Made by a program: the position numbers and the translations under genes | The notes under the pieces: model-generated | The model's database searches: none | Seen by the model: the letters and a program-made list of their open reading frames with translations, nothing else | Told to the model about the DNA's origin: nothing | Part shown: piece by piece, positions 272 through 62,923 of the stretch | How the letters are laid out: every line of letters starts with the position of its first letter | Numbering within the stretch: the stretch's first letter is position 1 | Assembly (NCBI RefSeq): GCF_004766055.1 | Contig: NZ_SPQR01000005.1 | Coordinates: 1-64,000, forward strand | DNA from: Desulfosporosinus sp. Sb-LF | GTDB lineage: Bacteria > Bacillota > Desulfitobacteriia > Desulfitobacteriales > Desulfitobacteriaceae | Reading direction: 5' to 3' | DNA length: 64,000 nucleotides

Positions 272-675
272 CTGTTTTTTTATCCAGTTGACCCTGCAGG
301 ATCTCCGAGTTGCTATGTAACCATATAGCATGCCTGGCTATTTGACCCTGGGGAAGCCCTAGTCCACTCGCTTATACGTGTGTAGGATTTGTCTTCCAGT
401 GTTTCGAATCCGTCCTTCCCGGTTTACTCGTTTAGTGGCTCAATCACTTTCAGGCCTGCTATCTGACTGTCTACTCTTAATAGCTAGGATTGCCCCTAAT
501 CATCCAAGACTCGTTATCGGTGACGTGGCTTGCGTCTTACCGGACGGGATTTCACCCCCTAAATACACAACCTATGGTCGTCGTGATCAGAATTTGAGAT
601 AAATATAAATGTATAAGAAAAGAAGCCGAAGCACTTGCTACGACCTCTTTTACCAATTTTATTTTCCAGAATTAT
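272..675. other. No gene recognised (upstream of rRNA promoters)
   Basis: Short open frames exist here but lack a ribosome binding site and any family likeness. The part near 310-600 has a fairly even base composition, as structured RNA or element remnants do, but I could not match it to a known RNA or insertion element. Confidence 0.4.
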
Positions 676-2461: not shown

Positions 2462-3829
2462 CTAAATACCCCAGTGTGGATCTATTCCGTATTTTTCCAA
2501 ACGGTATAAAAAGGCATGCCTGGAAAGTCCTAACCGCTTTGCCGCCCGACTTTGGTTTCCTCCTGTTTGTTCCATTGCCTGCTGAAGAAAGGATTTCTCG
2601 ATCTCTTCTAAGGAAACTCCCTCAGGCGGTAGTACAAAGGATCCAGTGCTCTTGGCTAACTTTGAAGAAGTATCAAAGAGGGGCAAACTCTCCATCCCAA
2701 TCACTGCCCCTTGAGAAATAATCACCATGCGTTCCACGACATTTTCCAGTTCACGCACATTTCCCGGCCAGGTATAAGTCATAAGTTGAGACAGGACTCC
2801 TAAACCAAGGGTCTTACTCCCCCCATAGGTCCTCAGTTTCTCCAAGAAATATTCGACAAGGAAGGGAATATCCTCTTGACGTCCTCGCAAGGGAGGCACG
2901 GAAATTGGAAAGACATTGAGTCGGTAATATAAATCCTCTCGAAAGCGTCCTTCTTGTGCCTCTTTAAGTAAATCTCGGTTCGTTGCCGCAATAATCCGCA
3001 CGTCAACCTTGATGGTTTTCTCTCCACCGACCCGCTCAAACGTCCGTTCCTGAAGTACCCGCAACAATTTAGCTTGAACATTAAACGACAGCTCGCCTAT
3101 CTCATCGAGAAAAAGCGTCCCACCATCGGCCAATTCAAACCTCCCTGTTTTACGTACATGGGCTCCCGTAAAGGCACCTTTCTCGTGTCCAAATAGTTCG
3201 CTTTCTAAGATCGTCTCAGTCAATGCGGCACAATTCACACGGACAAAGGGCCCGTCAACTCGCGGACTTAAACTATGAATGGCCTGAGCCACCAGTTCTT
3301 TTCCCGTACCTGACTCCCCTTGAATAAGTACAGTTGCTGGCGTCGGGGCGACCCGTTCGACTAGATGTTTGATGCCTTGCATCTTCTCACCGTTACCCAC
3401 CAACTGCCAACCACCGTGCTGAGCCTCTCCTTTCAAATAGTTCACATGCTCGCGCAAGCTTTCCACTTCAAAGGCCTTAGCCACCGTGATCAGCAGTTCA
3501 TCTATATCAAATGGTTTCATCAAATAATCATGTGCCCCGGCCTTCATAGCTTCAACCGCTGTGGCTGTACTTCCATGTGCCGTCATCATGACGATCATCA
3601 AATCCGAATAATGCTCTTTCAACGTGCGTAGGACAGTTAAGCCGTCCATTTTCGGCATTTTTAAATCCACAAGGATGAGATCCGGACGCTCCGCAAGAGC
3701 CCGATCTACAGCGAGTTGTCCATCCTCCGCCGTCTCCACTTCGTAACCGGCTTTTGTTAAGGCCCGTTCTAGAACCCAGCGCATATTTGCTTCGTCATCC
3801 GCGACTAAAATTCGACGCAGCTCTCCCAC
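2462..3829 (-). CDS. NtrC-family sigma-54 response regulator
   Basis: 455 residues in the classic three-domain order. The receiver has DD near residue 11 and phosphoacceptor Asp55 in ILVDLKMPK. The AAA+ domain has Walker A GESGTGKE and the GAFTGA loop that contacts sigma-54. A C-terminal Fis-type helix-turn-helix (about 425-449) contains [16 protein letters not shown]. It activates sigma-54 polymerase when phosphorylated. It is the first gene of the pair with the NtrB-like kinase. A promoter with correct -24/-12 elements lies 300 bases away, in front of the divergent operon, and a second lies at 13559. The GTG start at 3829 sits very close to an AAGGGG sequence, so the exact start is less sure. 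A decayed copy of its first codons lies near 13275-13355. Confidence 0.9.
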
Positions 3830-3837
3830 TCCCCTTA

Positions 3838-3862
3838 AAGATCAAACTTATTGTTTGATCTT
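3838..3862. promoter_or_regulatory. 10-bp inverted repeat, candidate activator site
   Basis: AAGATCAAAC (3838-3847) and GTTTGATCTT (3853-3862) form a perfect palindrome around five bases, just upstream of the ntrC-like start and about 265-290 bases from the sigma-54 promoter. That is a normal place for an enhancer-binding-protein site. The role is inferred. Confidence 0.4.
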
Positions 3863-3921
3863 ATTTTTTATGCGTTAGTTTGACCCGATTTATTGGTCGA
3901 TTGCTTGGTATAAGACGCTTA

Positions 3922-3959
3922 TGTTGGATATGACGCACTACACTGTGTTTTATCCAACA
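3922..3959. promoter_or_regulatory. Spaced inverted repeat, candidate upstream activating sequence
   Basis: TGTTGGATA (3922-3930) and TATCCAACA (3951-3959) are perfect inverted 9-mers 20 bases apart, 170-205 bases upstream of the -24 element. A GTGTTGGA...TCCCAC version occurs near 13379 in front of the second operon. The conservation in both copies suggests a binding site for the NtrC-like activator, but no binding site has been shown. Confidence 0.4.
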
Positions 3960-4126
3960 CTAATGTTAAACTAAGTACCTCTTGAGAACCTTTTAAATTA
4001 CCTTTTTAAGTGTTTTTCTAAGCATCAAAACCTTTTTCTCAGACACCAAAAATTCCATCAGATCCTGGCTGGAGTAGTCTCTCAAGACTATCACTATTAC
4101 ATCATAATTAATAACCAAGCGCAACT

Positions 4127-19814: not shown

Positions 19815-19874
19815 TTTAGAGACAAACTTACTTGCTTCATGGTATTCTTGAAAAGAACTAAATAGTTAGGAATA

Positions 19875-20036
19875 AGTGATTTCTTCTTGAGGGAAGGAAT
19901 TGAAAAGGAAAGTCAGTAGAAGGCTGACGCGGTACCCGCCACTGTAAGAGGGAATCAATTCACATCATGTCACTGGGACTTACCTGGGAAGACGTGAATT
20001 GATGATGATCTTGAGCCAGGAGACCTGCTTATTCTA
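19875..20036 (+). ncRNA. Cobalamin riboswitch
   Basis: The segment holds the conserved adenosylcobalamin-aptamer parts in order: a purine-rich left part with GGGAA, GCTGACGCGGTACCCGCCACT near 19931, GTCACTGG near 19969, CCTGGGAAGAC and GAGCCAGGAGACCTGC near 20015-20034. A terminator follows at 20124. It precedes a nickel/cobalt transporter gene and a cobalamin synthesis gene, which are known targets. The left boundary is approximate. Confidence 0.9.
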
Positions 20037-20123
20037 AATGTGAAAACTACCTACGGGAATGTTAGGGGGTGTATACTTGTGTCGATATTTCAACTCCGGT
20101 TGTCTGATACATGTTAAACTTTT

Positions 20124-55642: not shown

Positions 55643-57220
55643 TTAATTGACATGAGCCATCTGGATCATAATATCGTTTATTTTCGAAACTCTATCCTCA
55701 TTCGTTAGGACAATTAAGTAATCCCCTGGGTAAATAACCGTATCCCCTTTGGGGATTATTTCTCGTTCTCCACGTTTGACGGAAACTAGTAAGCAATCTG
55801 ATGGCCAAGTTACTTCTTTGATCTTTTTACCATCTAGCATCGACCCTAGACACACTGCAAACTCTAAGATGGATTTTGTTTTCTCGTTACCCATAACGGC
55901 CCTCTCACCCTGTTTGTGTAAAATCCTATCCAATAAGGACTCATAAATGGGTTTTGAACCTAATAGATCCGCAACAATATAGGCTACAATGGACACAACT
56001 GCCAGAGAAAGCAAATGGCTAAAGGACCCAGTCATTTCAGTAATCAAAATCGTTCCTGTTATTGGAGCCCTAACCACCGCTGTGAAGTAACCCGCCATCG
56101 CCAAAATTATAAAGTTACTCATAAAACCACTCTCGAAATGAAAAAATTGAACAAGGACCACTCCATATACATTCCCGATGATTGCACCGATGGCAAGCAA
56201 AGGAAGGAAGATCCCTCCAGGCGCACCTGATCCAAAGCTCGCCATTGTAAATAAAAACTTCACGAGCAATAAGACAATAAGAATAGTAAGAGAGAAATTT
56301 CCTGTGGTGACAAGCGATACTATCAGTTCATGCCCCCCCCCCAAAACCTGAGGTAATCTCAATCCCAAGACGACAGAAATTAAGAGCGGGATGATAATCC
56401 AGAACCTTTTAGAGAGCCATTTTTGCTCTACATATAAATCCTGTGTTCGTAAAATTGTTTTATTGAAAGCGACCCCTAAGACCCCGGTGATCATTCCTAA
56501 TAGAACAATGTAAGCATAAGACCTAAGTGGCAAGATGGTTAGATTAGTAAAGTTAAAGACTGGCTTTAGACCAAAAAATTGACTGCTTACAAAATCAGCC
56601 GATAATGCCGCGGATAGCGCTGAAAGCAACACGATAGGAGAAAAGTTCTTATGGATTTCCTCGAGGGCAAACATGACCCCTGCCAAAGGGGCATTAAAGG
56701 CAGCAGCAAGACCAGCACTTGCTCCACTTGTAATGAGATATTTTTCTTCTATCTTAATTCTCTTAAATAGTTTACTGAAGCCCTGACCCACCGCTGCACC
56801 TAATTGAACGGAAGGACCTTCTCGTCCCATAGAAAGCCCTGTTCCAATGACCAGAACTCCCCCAATAAATTTACCAAGGATCACCTTCCACCATTCCATC
56901 TCAAGTTTTCTTAACAAAACCCCTTTAACCTGTGGAATACCACTCCCACTGATCATTGGCTCATATTTGACCATCAAACCAACGGAATAGCCTAACACAG
57001 CCAAAACGCATACCCAAATGGGTATCAAAATGGGTCGTTGAGTCAATCCTTGATAAACTTCAGTGAGCAAAATCCCCATTTCTTCGAGGGCATAGCGATA
57101 TAAGACCACTACAAAACCCGTTAAAATCCCAACAGCAATTCCTTCAAAAACTAATTTCAAGCGAAAACTATGCCAATGAAACAATGAATTATAAGTATTA
57201 TTTTTATTATTTGTGTCCAT
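55643..57220 (-). CDS. ClC-type chloride channel/antiporter with TrkA-C domain
   Basis: 525 residues. The ClC core has GSGIPQ (as GSGIPQVKG), GREGPSVQ, and GSGAPGGIFLP. The proton-glutamate position of GREGP is kept, which suits an H+/Cl- antiporter. A C-terminal RCK_C/TrkA-C domain (about 450-522: KKIKEVTWPSDCLLVSVKRGEREIIPKGDTVI) is a regulatory, possibly nucleotide-binding domain. Such domains in other proteins bind c-di-AMP. ATG at 57220. A strong hairpin at 57304-57330 separates it from alr. Confidence 0.85.
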   Translation of the reverse strand: MDTNNKNNTYNSLFHWHSFRLKLVFEGIAVGILTGFVVVLYRYALEEMGILLTEVYQGLTQRPILIPIWVCVLAVLGYSVGLMVKYEPMISGSGIPQVKGVLLRKLEMEWWKVILGKFIGGVLVIGTGLSMGREGPSVQLGAAVGQGFSKLFKRIKIEEKYLITSGASAGLAAAFNAPLAGVMFALEEIHKNFSPIVLLSALSAALSADFVSSQFFGLKPVFNFTNLTILPLRSYAYIVLLGMITGVLGVAFNKTILRTQDLYVEQKWLSKRFWIIIPLLISVVLGLRLPQVLGGGHELIVSLVTTGNFSLTILIVLLLVKFLFTMASFGSGAPGGIFLPLLAIGAIIGNVYGVVLVQFFHFESGFMSNFIILAMAGYFTAVVRAPITGTILITEMTGSFSHLLSLAVVSIVAYIVADLLGSKPIYESLLDRILHKQGERAVMGNEKTKSILEFAVCLGSMLDGKKIKEVTWPSDCLLVSVKRGEREIIPKGDTVIYPGDYLIVLTNEDRVSKINDIMIQMAHVN

Positions 57221-60493: not shown

Positions 60494-61096
60494 TCATGTA
60501 ATTAACTGCGTCAACTGAACTTGGCCCTCTGCTGAGCCTGCAACTAGTAAGACATCTTCTGCTTGAAGAACAAAACCAGCCTCCGGAGAAAAATGTTCAA
60601 AACCGTCTCGAACTACTGCAATAATCGTTGTCCCCGTACGCTCTCGAATCCTTAATTCCTGCAAGGTCTTCCCAATCGCCGATGAGGCCTTTTCTAGTTT
60701 GATTTCTCCGACATCTAGCCAACGGGACATAATGCGTTCAGCATATCCACGCATTTTGTTTAGATGGTGTTCAATCTTTAGATCATTCTCACGCCTTTGG
60801 TCCATTAAACTTTTTAAGTCTTCTAGAAAGACTTGGATTTCTCCTTTTTGGTTGAAGGATTTAGTAAATTTTTCTGCCAAAGACTTTGATGTTACGGTAA
60901 TCCCTACCCCTTGACTAACCATAACCACACCGACATTTTGCAGAATTGCAATCGCCCGACGTATAGTTTCTGGTGAGACATTATACCGCCCTGCTAACGT
61001 AGAACGACCATGAATTTTTTCTCCTTCATGATATTCTCCCATCGTGATAGCGTGCGCTATATCAATAGCTATTTCCTGATAGCGTGCTTGGTCCAA
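60494..61096 (-). CDS. BusR-like GntR/RCK_C regulator
   Basis: 200 residues: GntR winged helix (about 1-75, RSTLAGRYNVSPETIRRAIAIL), a coiled-coil linker (about 80-125), and an RCK_C/TrkA-C domain (about 128-200, GKTLQELRIRERTGTTIIAV). This order and length match BusR, which represses osmolyte uptake when its RCK_C domain binds c-di-AMP. TTG start at 61096 with AAGGGG upstream. It diverges from the aminomutase gene, whose promoter carries an inverted repeat. c-di-AMP binding and target are inferred from architecture and context; the protein family (YhcF-like GntR) is clear. Confidence 0.8.
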   Translation of the reverse strand: MDQARYQEIAIDIAHAITMGEYHEGEKIHGRSTLAGRYNVSPETIRRAIAILQNVGVVMVSQGVGITVTSKSLAEKFTKSFNQKGEIQVFLEDLKSLMDQRRENDLKIEHHLNKMRGYAERIMSRWLDVGEIKLEKASSAIGKTLQELRIRERTGTTIIAVVRDGFEHFSPEAGFVLQAEDVLLVAGSAEGQVQLTQLIT

Positions 61097-61161
61097 TCAG
61101 TTCAACCCCTTACCCCATTTGTTCTATTATAACATAGCCAAATGCTGGTGGCATCATGCTA

Positions 61162-61190
61162 TTGACAAGTAACAACTTTAATGTTACTAT
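61162..61190 (+). promoter_or_regulatory. sigma-A promoter of the aminomutase gene
   Basis: TTGACA (61162-61167), exactly 17 bases, TACTAT (61185-61190). The riboswitch starts about 28 bases after the -10. The palindrome at 61170-61200 overlaps the spacer and the -10. Confidence 0.75.
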
Positions 61191-61200
61191 TAAGTTGTTA
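61170..61200. promoter_or_regulatory. Operator-like inverted repeat over the aminomutase promoter
   Basis: TAACAACTT (61170-61178) and AAGTTGTTA (61192-61200) are exact inverted 9-mers spanning the spacer and -10. Placed between the divergent BusR-like gene and its probable target, it is the likely repressor site; binding is inferred. Confidence 0.6.
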
Positions 61201-61217
61201 GTAAAAATAAATAATAG

Positions 61218-61327
61218 ATTGCTTAATTTCCTAAAGGAAAACGGGGGAACCACATCTTGGGGTGAATCGCCAAATGGCGTAGAGCAGTTTCAGCTCGAAC
61301 CCGACAGCTAACCTCGTAAGCGTTGAA
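61218..61327 (+). ncRNA. ydaO/yuaA c-di-AMP riboswitch
   Basis: Conserved parts appear in order: TTGCTTAATTTCC at the start, ACGGGGGAACCA (61241-61252), TTGGGGTGAATC (61257-61268), and CGAACCCGACAGCTAACCTC through GTAAGCGTT (61296-61324). This is the ydaO consensus, as in the B. subtilis ydaO leader. A terminator lies 44 bases on. These RNAs stop transcription when c-di-AMP is bound and mostly control osmotic, potassium and wall genes. Confidence 0.92.
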
Positions 61328-61370
61328 ACACGTTAACGTAATATCGTGATATTCTGCGTTTATTTCTTTT

Positions 61371-61403
61371 GGGAACCGCCATAGTAGAGCGGTTCTCTTT
61401 TTG
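61371..61403 (+). terminator. Riboswitch terminator
   Basis: GAACCGC (61373-61379) and GCGGTTC (61389-61395) pair, followed by TCTTTTTG. It lies between the aptamer and the aminomutase gene, so ligand-controlled termination is expected. Confidence 0.8.
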
Positions 61404-61445
61404 TTTCAATCGTGAACCCTCGAATATAATAAAGGAGGAATCTGG

Positions 61446-62696
61446 ATGGCTGTTCAACTTCTCAATAAACCCGATACATTTCGTCAATTCGCACTGCAGC
61501 GGGGCGCAGTTCTTAAACAAAAAATAACGCCTTATCTTGAAAAATGCAAAACCATCCCAACGGGGTTCTCGAACACAGAAGCTTACCAATTCAACCGAGC
61601 AAACATTCTAAAGCACTTCAATGCAACGCTCGAAGACTGGAATAATTGGCACTGGCAAATGCACAACAGGATCACCGATCCTCACGTCTTGAGTGCTATA
61701 CTTCCCGCCTTAACCACGGAACAATGCCAAGAAATCGAGCGTGTAGGAAAAACCTTCCGTTGGGCTGTATCCCCGTACTATCTGAGTTTGATGGATGTTA
61801 CAGATCCCCTTGACCCTATTCGTCTTCAGGGACTACCTACACAGGATGAACTTTTCGATGATTTTGGCGAAGAAGATCCCATGGGGGAAGCCATTACATC
61901 CCCTGCTCCCTGCATTACCCGTCGTTATCCTGATCGCTTAATTATCAACGTCACGAATATGTGCGCAATGTACTGCCGACATTGTCAGCGCCGACGAAAT
62001 ATTGGTGAAACGGACACCCACGAAGAACGGGCCCGACTTACAGCAGCGCTCGATTATATTCGGTCAAACCCCGAGATTCGGGACGTCTTAGTGACAGGCG
62101 GAGACGCCTTACTTCTCAGTGATCTAACCTTAGATTGGCTTCTTGGGGAACTCCATTCCATTCCTCATGTAGAAATCAAACGCCTCGGGACACGAGCTCC
62201 CGTGACCATGCCGATGCGCATTACGAATGAATTATGTTCTATCTTGGCCAAATATCCACCTTTATATATCAACACACAGTTCAACCACCCCAAAGAAGTG
62301 ACCGAAGATGCCAAAAAGGCGGCTGACAAACTCGTTGCAGCCGGAGTGGTCTTAGGAAATCAGACGGTATTGCTCAAAGGCGTTAATAATCAGCCGGAAA
62401 TCATGAAAAAACTCAATCAAGAACTACTCAAAATTAGAGTCCGCCCCTATTATATCTTTCATGCCAAAAACGTCAAAGGAACACGTCATTTTGTGCCTCG
62501 GATCCAAGACGGACTTGATGTTATGGAACATTTACGGGGATATACTTCAGGGCTTGCGATACCAACCTATATTGTGAATGCTCCCAAAGGCGGCGGCAAA
62601 ACTCCCATCTTACCGCAATATCTTATGTCCCTCCATGAAAACAAAGCGGTTTTGCGTACTTGGGAAGGAAAACTCATCCGGTATGAAACTCCATAA
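61446..62696 (+). CDS. eam: Glutamate 2,3-aminomutase (radical SAM, KamA family)
   Basis: 416 residues. Radical SAM Cys set CAMYCRHC (Cys173, 177, 180) and the PLP Lys in PKGGGK (Lys385). Lysine 2,3-aminomutase uses two Asp residues to hold the lysine side chain. Here the corresponding positions are Lys341 (HAKN) and Asn378 (VNAPKGGGK), the known signature of glutamate 2,3-aminomutase, first described from Clostridioides difficile. It converts L-glutamate to beta-glutamate, a compatible solute in some anaerobes. ATG at 61446 with AAGGAGGAA upstream. The c-di-AMP riboswitch and a BusR-like repressor gene sit upstream. Confidence 0.88.
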   Translation: MAVQLLNKPDTFRQFALQRGAVLKQKITPYLEKCKTIPTGFSNTEAYQFNRANILKHFNATLEDWNNWHWQMHNRITDPHVLSAILPALTTEQCQEIERVGKTFRWAVSPYYLSLMDVTDPLDPIRLQGLPTQDELFDDFGEEDPMGEAITSPAPCITRRYPDRLIINVTNMCAMYCRHCQRRRNIGETDTHEERARLTAALDYIRSNPEIRDVLVTGGDALLLSDLTLDWLLGELHSIPHVEIKRLGTRAPVTMPMRITNELCSILAKYPPLYINTQFNHPKEVTEDAKKAADKLVAAGVVLGNQTVLLKGVNNQPEIMKKLNQELLKIRVRPYYIFHAKNVKGTRHFVPRIQDGLDVMEHLRGYTSGLAIPTYIVNAPKGGGKTPILPQYLMSLHENKAVLRTWEGKLIRYETP

Positions 62697-62728
62697 TAGG
62701 AGATTAACCTTTGAAAGGGGTGTGTAAA

Positions 62729-62923
62729 ATGATGGAACGTCTCAATAACGACCAAATAGCCCAGCGGATTCTGGATGCAAACTCAGATCTGAAACGTTAC
62801 TTGAACTTAGCACCTAGCCTTAATAAACCTGCTCCATCCCAACCAAAAACCACCGTAGGATATTTCCAACGTCCGATTTCCACGACCCCATTTCATAGAC
62901 CTTTGCTAAGACCTTTAGAATAG
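62729..62923 (+). CDS. Small protein in the aminomutase operon
   Basis: 64 residues from the ATG at 62729 (AAAGGGGTG upstream). N-terminal helix (ERLNNDQIAQRILDANSDLKRY), then a Pro/Arg-rich extended tail (PAPSQPKTTVGYFQRPIS). Not recognised. It starts 32 bases after the aminomutase gene and ends at a strong terminator, so it is under the same riboswitch. It may be an accessory of the enzyme. Confidence 0.65.
   Translation: MMERLNNDQIAQRILDANSDLKRYLNLAPSLNKPAPSQPKTTVGYFQRPISTTPFHRPLLRPLE

Follow-up and report, generated by a model that had tools for sequence, protein, structure and literature searches.

A BusR-like candidate repressor and a c-di-AMP riboswitch on the glutamate 2,3-aminomutase gene of Desulfosporosinus: a predicted order-wide compatible-solute regulon

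In Desulfosporosinus, a sulfate-reducing bacterium, the gene for a glutamate 2,3-aminomutase (eam) has a promoter overlaid by an inverted repeat and, behind it, a ydaO riboswitch, and a gene for a BusR-like regulator diverges from it. The locus raises the question of whether a protein and an RNA both report c-di-AMP to one beta-glutamate gene, as a preliminary description had proposed. We analyzed the whole surrounding stretch of DNA (the window), which consists of bases 1 to 64,000 of contig 5 of a 4.27-Mb Desulfosporosinus genome. Every element named in that description was found at its position (Table 1); a conserved small open reading frame (ORF) within the same region had been overlooked. 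Rightward, the order is promoter, operator, ydaO aptamer, terminator, eam and the 70-amino-acid (aa) ORF, while leftward transcription covers the regulator gene first and acpS next. The 70-aa ORF gave no Pfam or NCBIfam match. Elsewhere in the window, three genes away from the regulator, lies a ClC-type chloride channel gene (55643 to 57220, minus strand) whose product ends in a TrkA_C (RCK_C) domain; we also observed a group II intron piece (RF02005, 87.9 bits; 336 to 553, minus strand) and a cobalamin riboswitch (119.3 bits; 19857 to 20046, plus strand).

Table 1. Features of the regulator-eam locus, in window coordinates
Feature	Position	Strand	Evidence
BusR-like regulator, GntR winged helix + long helix + RCK_C, TTG start	60494-61096	-	Pfam, Foldseek, eam adjacency
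Sigma-A promoter of eam, TTGACA-17-TACTAT	61162-61190 (hexamers 61162-61167 and 61185-61190, spacer 17)	+	TTGAC and TATNAT conserved in 47 aligned sites
Operator, exact 9-bp inverted repeat TAACAACTT-N13-AAGTTGTTA	61170-61200 (arms 61170-61178 and 61192-61200)		Arms conserved across the order
ydaO c-di-AMP riboswitch aptamer (RF00379)	61210-61337	+	99.6 bits, gathering score 38, E 2e-22
Aptamer strand GGGGGAACC, antiterminator partner of terminator 3' arm	61243-61251	+	Duplex -12.9 kcal/mol
Intrinsic terminator GGGAACCGC...GCGGTTCTC	Hairpin 61371-61397, through TTTTT 61402	+	Hairpin -15.0 kcal/mol
eam, glutamate 2,3-aminomutase (radical SAM, PLP)	61446-62696	+	TIGR04368 703.3 bits; K341/N378
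Conserved 70-aa ORF	62711-62923	+	3' of eam; conservation across Desulfosporosinus

Enzyme, operator, regulator and riboswitch at the eam locus

The assignment of the enzyme as a glutamate 2,3-aminomutase was upheld. Eam passed the cut-off of the glutamate equivalog (650 bits) and scored 457.6 bits against the lysine 2,3-aminomutase equivalog, below the cut-off of 525.4. Lys341 and Asn378, the signature residues on which the assignment had been based, align with the two lysine-binding Asp residues of the solved lysine enzyme (2A5H) and are invariant across 12 relatives; the CxxxCxxC cluster motif is also present, with C173, C177 and C180 invariant. With both lysine-binding Asp residues replaced and the equivalog cut-off missed, Eam does not classify as a lysine 2,3-aminomutase, and it resembles the TIGR04368 family in score and in the Lys/Asn substitutions without notable difference. 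Production of beta-glutamate by Eam is well supported by its family, and beta-glutamate would be the osmolyte here.

A search for conserved neighborhoods of regulator, ydaO and eam had also been suggested. Such a neighborhood was found for the regulator and eam, which are divergent neighbors in 48 genomes of the order surveyed (probably Desulfitobacteriales; it also includes Paradesulfitobacterium, Acididesulfobacillus and Desulfitobacterium relatives), but ydaO accompanied only 19 of the 48 pairs (17 recognized by core motif, G022 and G031 by Rfam). The exact 9-bp inverted repeat over the sigma-A promoter was present as described and spans the -35/-10 spacer, the -10 hexamer and the probable start site. 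When intergenic regions were scanned with a weight matrix of the repeat arms, all 48 regulator-eam regions scored above threshold (the weakest being those of G058 and G059); of 48 shuffled controls, all but two stayed below zero, the exceptions scoring 5.8 and 15.7. The operator consensus is RACAACY-N15-RGTTGTY. Forty-seven sites were aligned, 42 of them from eam promoters and 5 linked to the regulator in the absence of eam. Their ACAAC and GTTG arms are near-invariant. The CAAC and GTTG cores do not vary at all, partly by construction since both belonged to the collecting pattern, and the -35 and -10 hexamers lie at a fixed place relative to them. Signs of an operator that do not depend on that pattern are this constant spacing, the A/G and Y/R flanks, a trailing AG and where the sites fall genome-wide. 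We rejected a chance repeat: allowing up to three mismatches, the inverted-repeat pattern has an expected count of 0.04 in the window, the arms are conserved in the aligned sites, all 48 pairs score for the operator, and the exact operator pattern recurs in every Desulfosporosinus genome searched. Since the operator is found in all pairs and ydaO in 19, control at the protein level appears constant and control at the RNA level appears to be an optional layer.

Pfam, a structural model and Foldseek agreed on the BusR-like architecture that had been proposed for the divergent regulator. Its GntR winged helix-turn-helix (residues 6 to 68) and TrkA_C/RCK_C domain (131 to 192) both exceeded Pfam cut-offs, and in an AlphaFold2 model (mean pLDDT 87) they are joined by one 57-residue helix (71 to 127). 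The top 13 Foldseek matches in the PDB were all BusR chains, with TM-scores of 0.37 to 0.53 and a differing domain arrangement, as expected for a hinged monomer model. Among the residues with which BusR contacts DNA, Y13, R38, R53, G70 and G72 are retained in all 56 orthologues of the regulator, K54 is Arg in all 56 and K36 is His in 52. The BusR operator is bipartite and inverted, with GAC half-sites 22 bp apart (PMC8517857); compared with this published description, the RAC/GTY half-sites of the operator here are 23 bp apart. We infer that the regulator binds DNA and represses. More distant homologues, at about 42% identity, lie in housekeeping neighborhoods with no operator beside them.

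The claim of a ydaO riboswitch with a terminator on eam was likewise borne out, the aptamer scoring far above its gathering score and a run of T residues following the terminator hairpin. In its 5' arm the terminator duplicates the aptamer strand GGGGGAACC, so that the 3' arm, GGTTCTC, is able to pair with either strand, and the same mimicry occurs in most ydaO-bearing eam leaders of orthologues. The expression platform consists of a terminator and a competing antiterminator, an OFF-type leader that is conserved in most leaders, and judged by this architecture the eam leader has the anatomy of a c-di-AMP OFF switch. A diadenylate cyclase gene is present in the window's genome. That genome contains four ydaO riboswitches, on eam, a citrate synthase gene and two NlpC/P60 genes; a Na+ riboswitch in the eam leader was rejected, no match being found in the window's genome, eam leader included. 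The riboswitch is not a constant partner of the regulator-eam pair: besides its presence in 19 of 48 pairs, a decayed ydaO remnant was seen in the eam leader of G027, and when the joined proteins were placed on a tree, 6 changes of the ydaO label were required, of which well-supported branches force at least 5. On other contigs of the window's genome, the citrate synthase gene (2585 to 3967) lies under ydaO (2354 to 2496; L158, contig 8), and its activity could feed glutamate for beta-glutamate; an OLE RNA (397.6 bits; L157, contig 7, 190 to 772) lies about 400 bases upstream of a ydaO riboswitch with an NlpC/P60 gene.

The explanation that we favor is that the BusR-like GntR-RCK_C protein would bind the 31-bp inverted repeat over the eam promoter and block initiation, and that transcripts escaping this block would reach the ydaO riboswitch and be terminated at high c-di-AMP. 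Expression of eam, and hence beta-glutamate, would then be possible only with both brakes off, as in osmotic stress. Across the order, the regulator would act as a master repressor of compatible-solute and cell-wall-hydrolase genes, with the riboswitch as an optional second layer on some of its targets. Reading it from sequence, we assign this explanation as a whole a probability of about 0.78. Counting against it are the loss of most BusR pocket residues from the regulator's RCK_C domain, two genomes that retain the regulator but show no exact operator (G037 and G038), three with operator-like sites in which no regulator was found (G043, G056 and G066), and the operator-free surroundings of the more distant homologues.

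Operator sites across the order and the predicted regulon

The control is not limited to the one beta-glutamate gene originally described: the operator marks a wide set of compatible-solute genes, and ehuB and a yopX-response-regulator operon likewise have it paired with ydaO. The exact operator pattern was found in all 30 Desulfosporosinus genomes, and a reversed-pattern control in 1 of the 30. Of the 70 Desulfosporosinus sites inspected, 67 are no more than 520 bp away from where a homologue of eam, ablA, the gene for an ABC binding protein divergent from ablA, ehuB, otsAB, NlpC/P60 or yopX begins, or the regulator alone (three sites, from genomes with eam remnants). One of the three remaining sites has another ydaO riboswitch about 20 bp away, and the pair precedes a small ORF and a cytochrome bd gene (G024, L127). 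The window's genome has three exact sites, at eam and two NlpC/P60 genes, and eam is its sole gene carrying both operator and ydaO.

Outside Desulfosporosinus, the operator precedes genes for ProV-type ATPases of betaine transporters (G003, G004 and G005; an OpuA-type gene is the target in G003 and G004), otsAB (G039, G040 and G043), citrate synthase (G051 and G055), NlpC/P60 genes (G003 to G005) and the gene for a bifunctional mannitol-1-phosphate dehydrogenase/phosphatase (G069). The OpuA-type betaine transporter is the kind of gene that BusR controls (PMC8517857). The families of representative targets were assigned by profile score, and the remainder of those in other genera were judged by eye from their translations; the scores were 295 for EhuB (cut-off 191), 467 and 402 for the ProV-type proteins (327), 972 for OtsAB (634), 631 for AblA (525), 1018 for the bifunctional MtlD (800) and 719 for citrate synthase (426). 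The regulon predicted from these sites follows BusR logic and extends over the order. It would cover the synthesis of beta-glutamate, beta-lysine, trehalose and mannitol and the uptake of betaine and ectoine, together with citrate synthase and wall hydrolases. Such a composition argues that the regulator's signal is osmotic, whichever its ligand. A role for the regulator in the acpS operon only was rejected as its main function, since the operator is absent at acpS and marks solute genes.

The operator and the riboswitch take each other's place on some genes, and at eam, ehuB and yopX they occur together. Genes for citrate synthase, ablA and NlpC/P60 genes carry the operator in some genomes and ydaO in others; for citrate synthase, it is ydaO in the window's genome and the operator in G051 and G055. 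Both devices stand together on ehuB in G004 (L169) and, as a second conserved pair, ahead of a YopX-domain gene and a response regulator in the yopX operons of G013, G016 and G042 (L125, L126 and L165). The L125 operon contains a further large ORF, possibly for a sensor kinase.

Several genomes have lost eam. In three of them (G012, G033 and G034) eam is reduced to fragments, and the regulator is retained along with its operator and, behind the latter, the 70-aa ORF. G021 (L018/L069) and G042 (L068) have lost eam together with the adjacent operator and kept the regulator; operators remain at ablA and NlpC/P60 in the former and at the yopX operon in the latter. G037 (L074) and G038 (L073) kept the regulator without eam, and no exact operator was found in either genome. 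In G037, G038 and G042, the sequence beside the regulator resembles a ytqA-type radical SAM gene.

What the regulator may sense

BusR represses a betaine transporter through its bipartite operator when activated by c-di-AMP (PMC8517857). We compared its pocket residues (I153, G154, N157, W159, H160, A164, T165, I166 and P181) with the corresponding positions in the 56 orthologues. W159 and H160 are replaced by Arg and Glu, respectively, and N157 by Lys, Arg, Gln or Glu, in all 56; G154 is kept in one, most others having Arg or Gln, and P181 in four, with Ala otherwise. T165 is kept, and positions 153 and 166 are conservative. The W159/P181/F182 patch responsible for BusR autoinhibition is likewise absent, the F182 position being varied. 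Because this ligand-pocket comparison failed, we file the regulator as BusR-like and not as BusR.

We consider it close to an even chance that the repressor reads a different osmotic cue, whether ionic strength, K+ or some other ligand bound by an RCK_C cleft of altered shape, and that eam integrates two independent inputs. The cleft carries a non-BusR motif, L-x-E-L-K/R-I/V-R-E-x-T-G-x-T, that is strongly conserved order-wide, and DNA binding by Lactococcus lactis BusR has also been reported to respond to ionic strength (PMC10243994). The presence of two devices on one gene, moreover, makes more sense if each measures something different, and the riboswitch was gained or lost at least five times on the tree while the operator is present in every pair. 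The overlap of the regulator's regulon with that of ydaO speaks against a separate cue.

That same overlap, with both regulons falling on the same gene classes, fits a reading in which both layers sense c-di-AMP: the regulator would bind it in the RCK_C dimer cleft like BusR and repress, and ydaO would stop the transcripts that escape. The retained BusR architecture and DNA-contact residues are consistent with this, as is the Arg at BusR position 159, which equals the canonical Arg of c-di-AMP RCK_C signatures and of KhtT, and homologues outside the order carry D-x-R at the canonical positions. Against it stand the pocket replacements in most of the 56 orthologues and the comparison with the general signature, (I/L)(I/L)X2DX1RX5N(I/L)(I/L) (PMC10117811), of which the regulator has the first hydrophobic position, the Arg and the closing hydrophobic pair but neither the Asp nor the Asn. 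KhtT, a known c-di-AMP binder, has the Arg and Thr165 in common with the regulator but keeps the Asp. Furthermore, of six RCK_C proteins in Streptomyces venezuelae, four failed to bind c-di-AMP (PMC10117811); possession of the domain is therefore in itself no evidence of c-di-AMP sensing. We therefore regard shared c-di-AMP sensing as a serious but doubtful reading.

The remaining alternatives are very improbable. Operator-like sites in three genomes without a detected regulator (G043, G056 and G066; 76%, 82% and 95% complete) might suggest that another transcription factor reads the operator and that the adjoining GntR-RCK gene is incidental, but the operator lies beside the regulator in 48 of 48 pairs and also where eam was lost, its half-sites resemble those of BusR, and G048 and G072, fairly complete genomes with eam in which no regulator was detected, have no operator at eam. 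Equally hard to sustain is the idea that the enzyme makes beta-lysine, or that its beta-glutamate is not for osmoprotection: Eam is homologous to lysine 2,3-aminomutase, but its equivalog score and substrate-site residues point to glutamate, and genes for betaine, ectoine, trehalose, mannitol and beta-lysine have the operator in common with it.

Of the two c-di-AMP controls originally proposed, the RNA layer is supported in its OFF-switch anatomy, and the protein layer is called into question by the replaced BusR pocket; negative control of one gene at both the DNA and the RNA level is supported, and the reading of c-di-AMP by both is not, in the form proposed. Tentatively, and with somewhat less than even odds, we propose an order-wide master repressor whose RCK_C domain would be rebuilt for a signal other than c-di-AMP, with eam expressed under the rule "osmotic signal X off and c-di-AMP low."

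Relation to known systems and significance

The regulator resembles the BusR of Streptococcus and Lactococcus in its winged helix-turn-helix, helix and RCK_C domains and its DNA-contact residues, in the bipartite inverted operator over the promoter and, in two genomes, in an OpuA-type betaine transporter target. It differs in lacking the c-di-AMP pocket and autoinhibition patch, and whereas BusR controls busA, the regulator here is predicted to act also on solute synthesis, ectoine uptake, citrate synthase and cell-wall hydrolases. The riboswitch agrees with the known ydaO/yuaA family (RF00379) in aptamer score, terminator OFF platform and osmolyte and NlpC/P60 targets; unlike in that family, it lies on eam directly behind a repressor operator.

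The closest published parallel is ablA of Dehalobacter sp. CF, which has tandem Na+ and c-di-AMP riboswitches (PMC9337991). There, too, a gene whose aminomutase serves to make a beta-amino-acid osmolyte has two devices, one of them a c-di-AMP OFF switch, and the organism apparently belongs to this order; but both are RNAs, with Na+ as the second input, whereas on eam the partner of the riboswitch is a predicted DNA-binding repressor. We found tandem Na+/c-di-AMP riboswitches on ablA in genus g14 (G051 to G054), which for this reason is presumably Dehalobacter. The novelty of the combination is consequently narrower than first claimed: a ydaO riboswitch on an aminomutase gene and a two-input gate on such a gene had been published (PMC9337991), and BusR is known. 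In the literature searched, mostly without subscription papers, we found no description of the order-wide operator or its breadth over at least five compatible solutes, of a BusR-like repressor that pairs with ydaO and changes places with it, or of the altered RCK_C cleft; for a GntR/TrkA_C osmoregulon beyond BusR, nothing but the two BusR papers of 2018 was found.

To our knowledge, little is known about the control of solute synthesis in strict anaerobes. For such organisms the locus yields a prediction of defined sequence, a repressor and its operator governing an entire osmoregulon, and the prediction is directly testable. It also supplies a natural example of a DNA-binding repressor and a c-di-AMP riboswitch taking each other's place, or acting as each other's backup, at shared genes. 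If the tentative scheme is true, a repressor with a rebuilt RCK_C domain and an RNA would together gate eam and a few other genes, and if the ligand is not c-di-AMP, a new RCK_C signal would be indicated.
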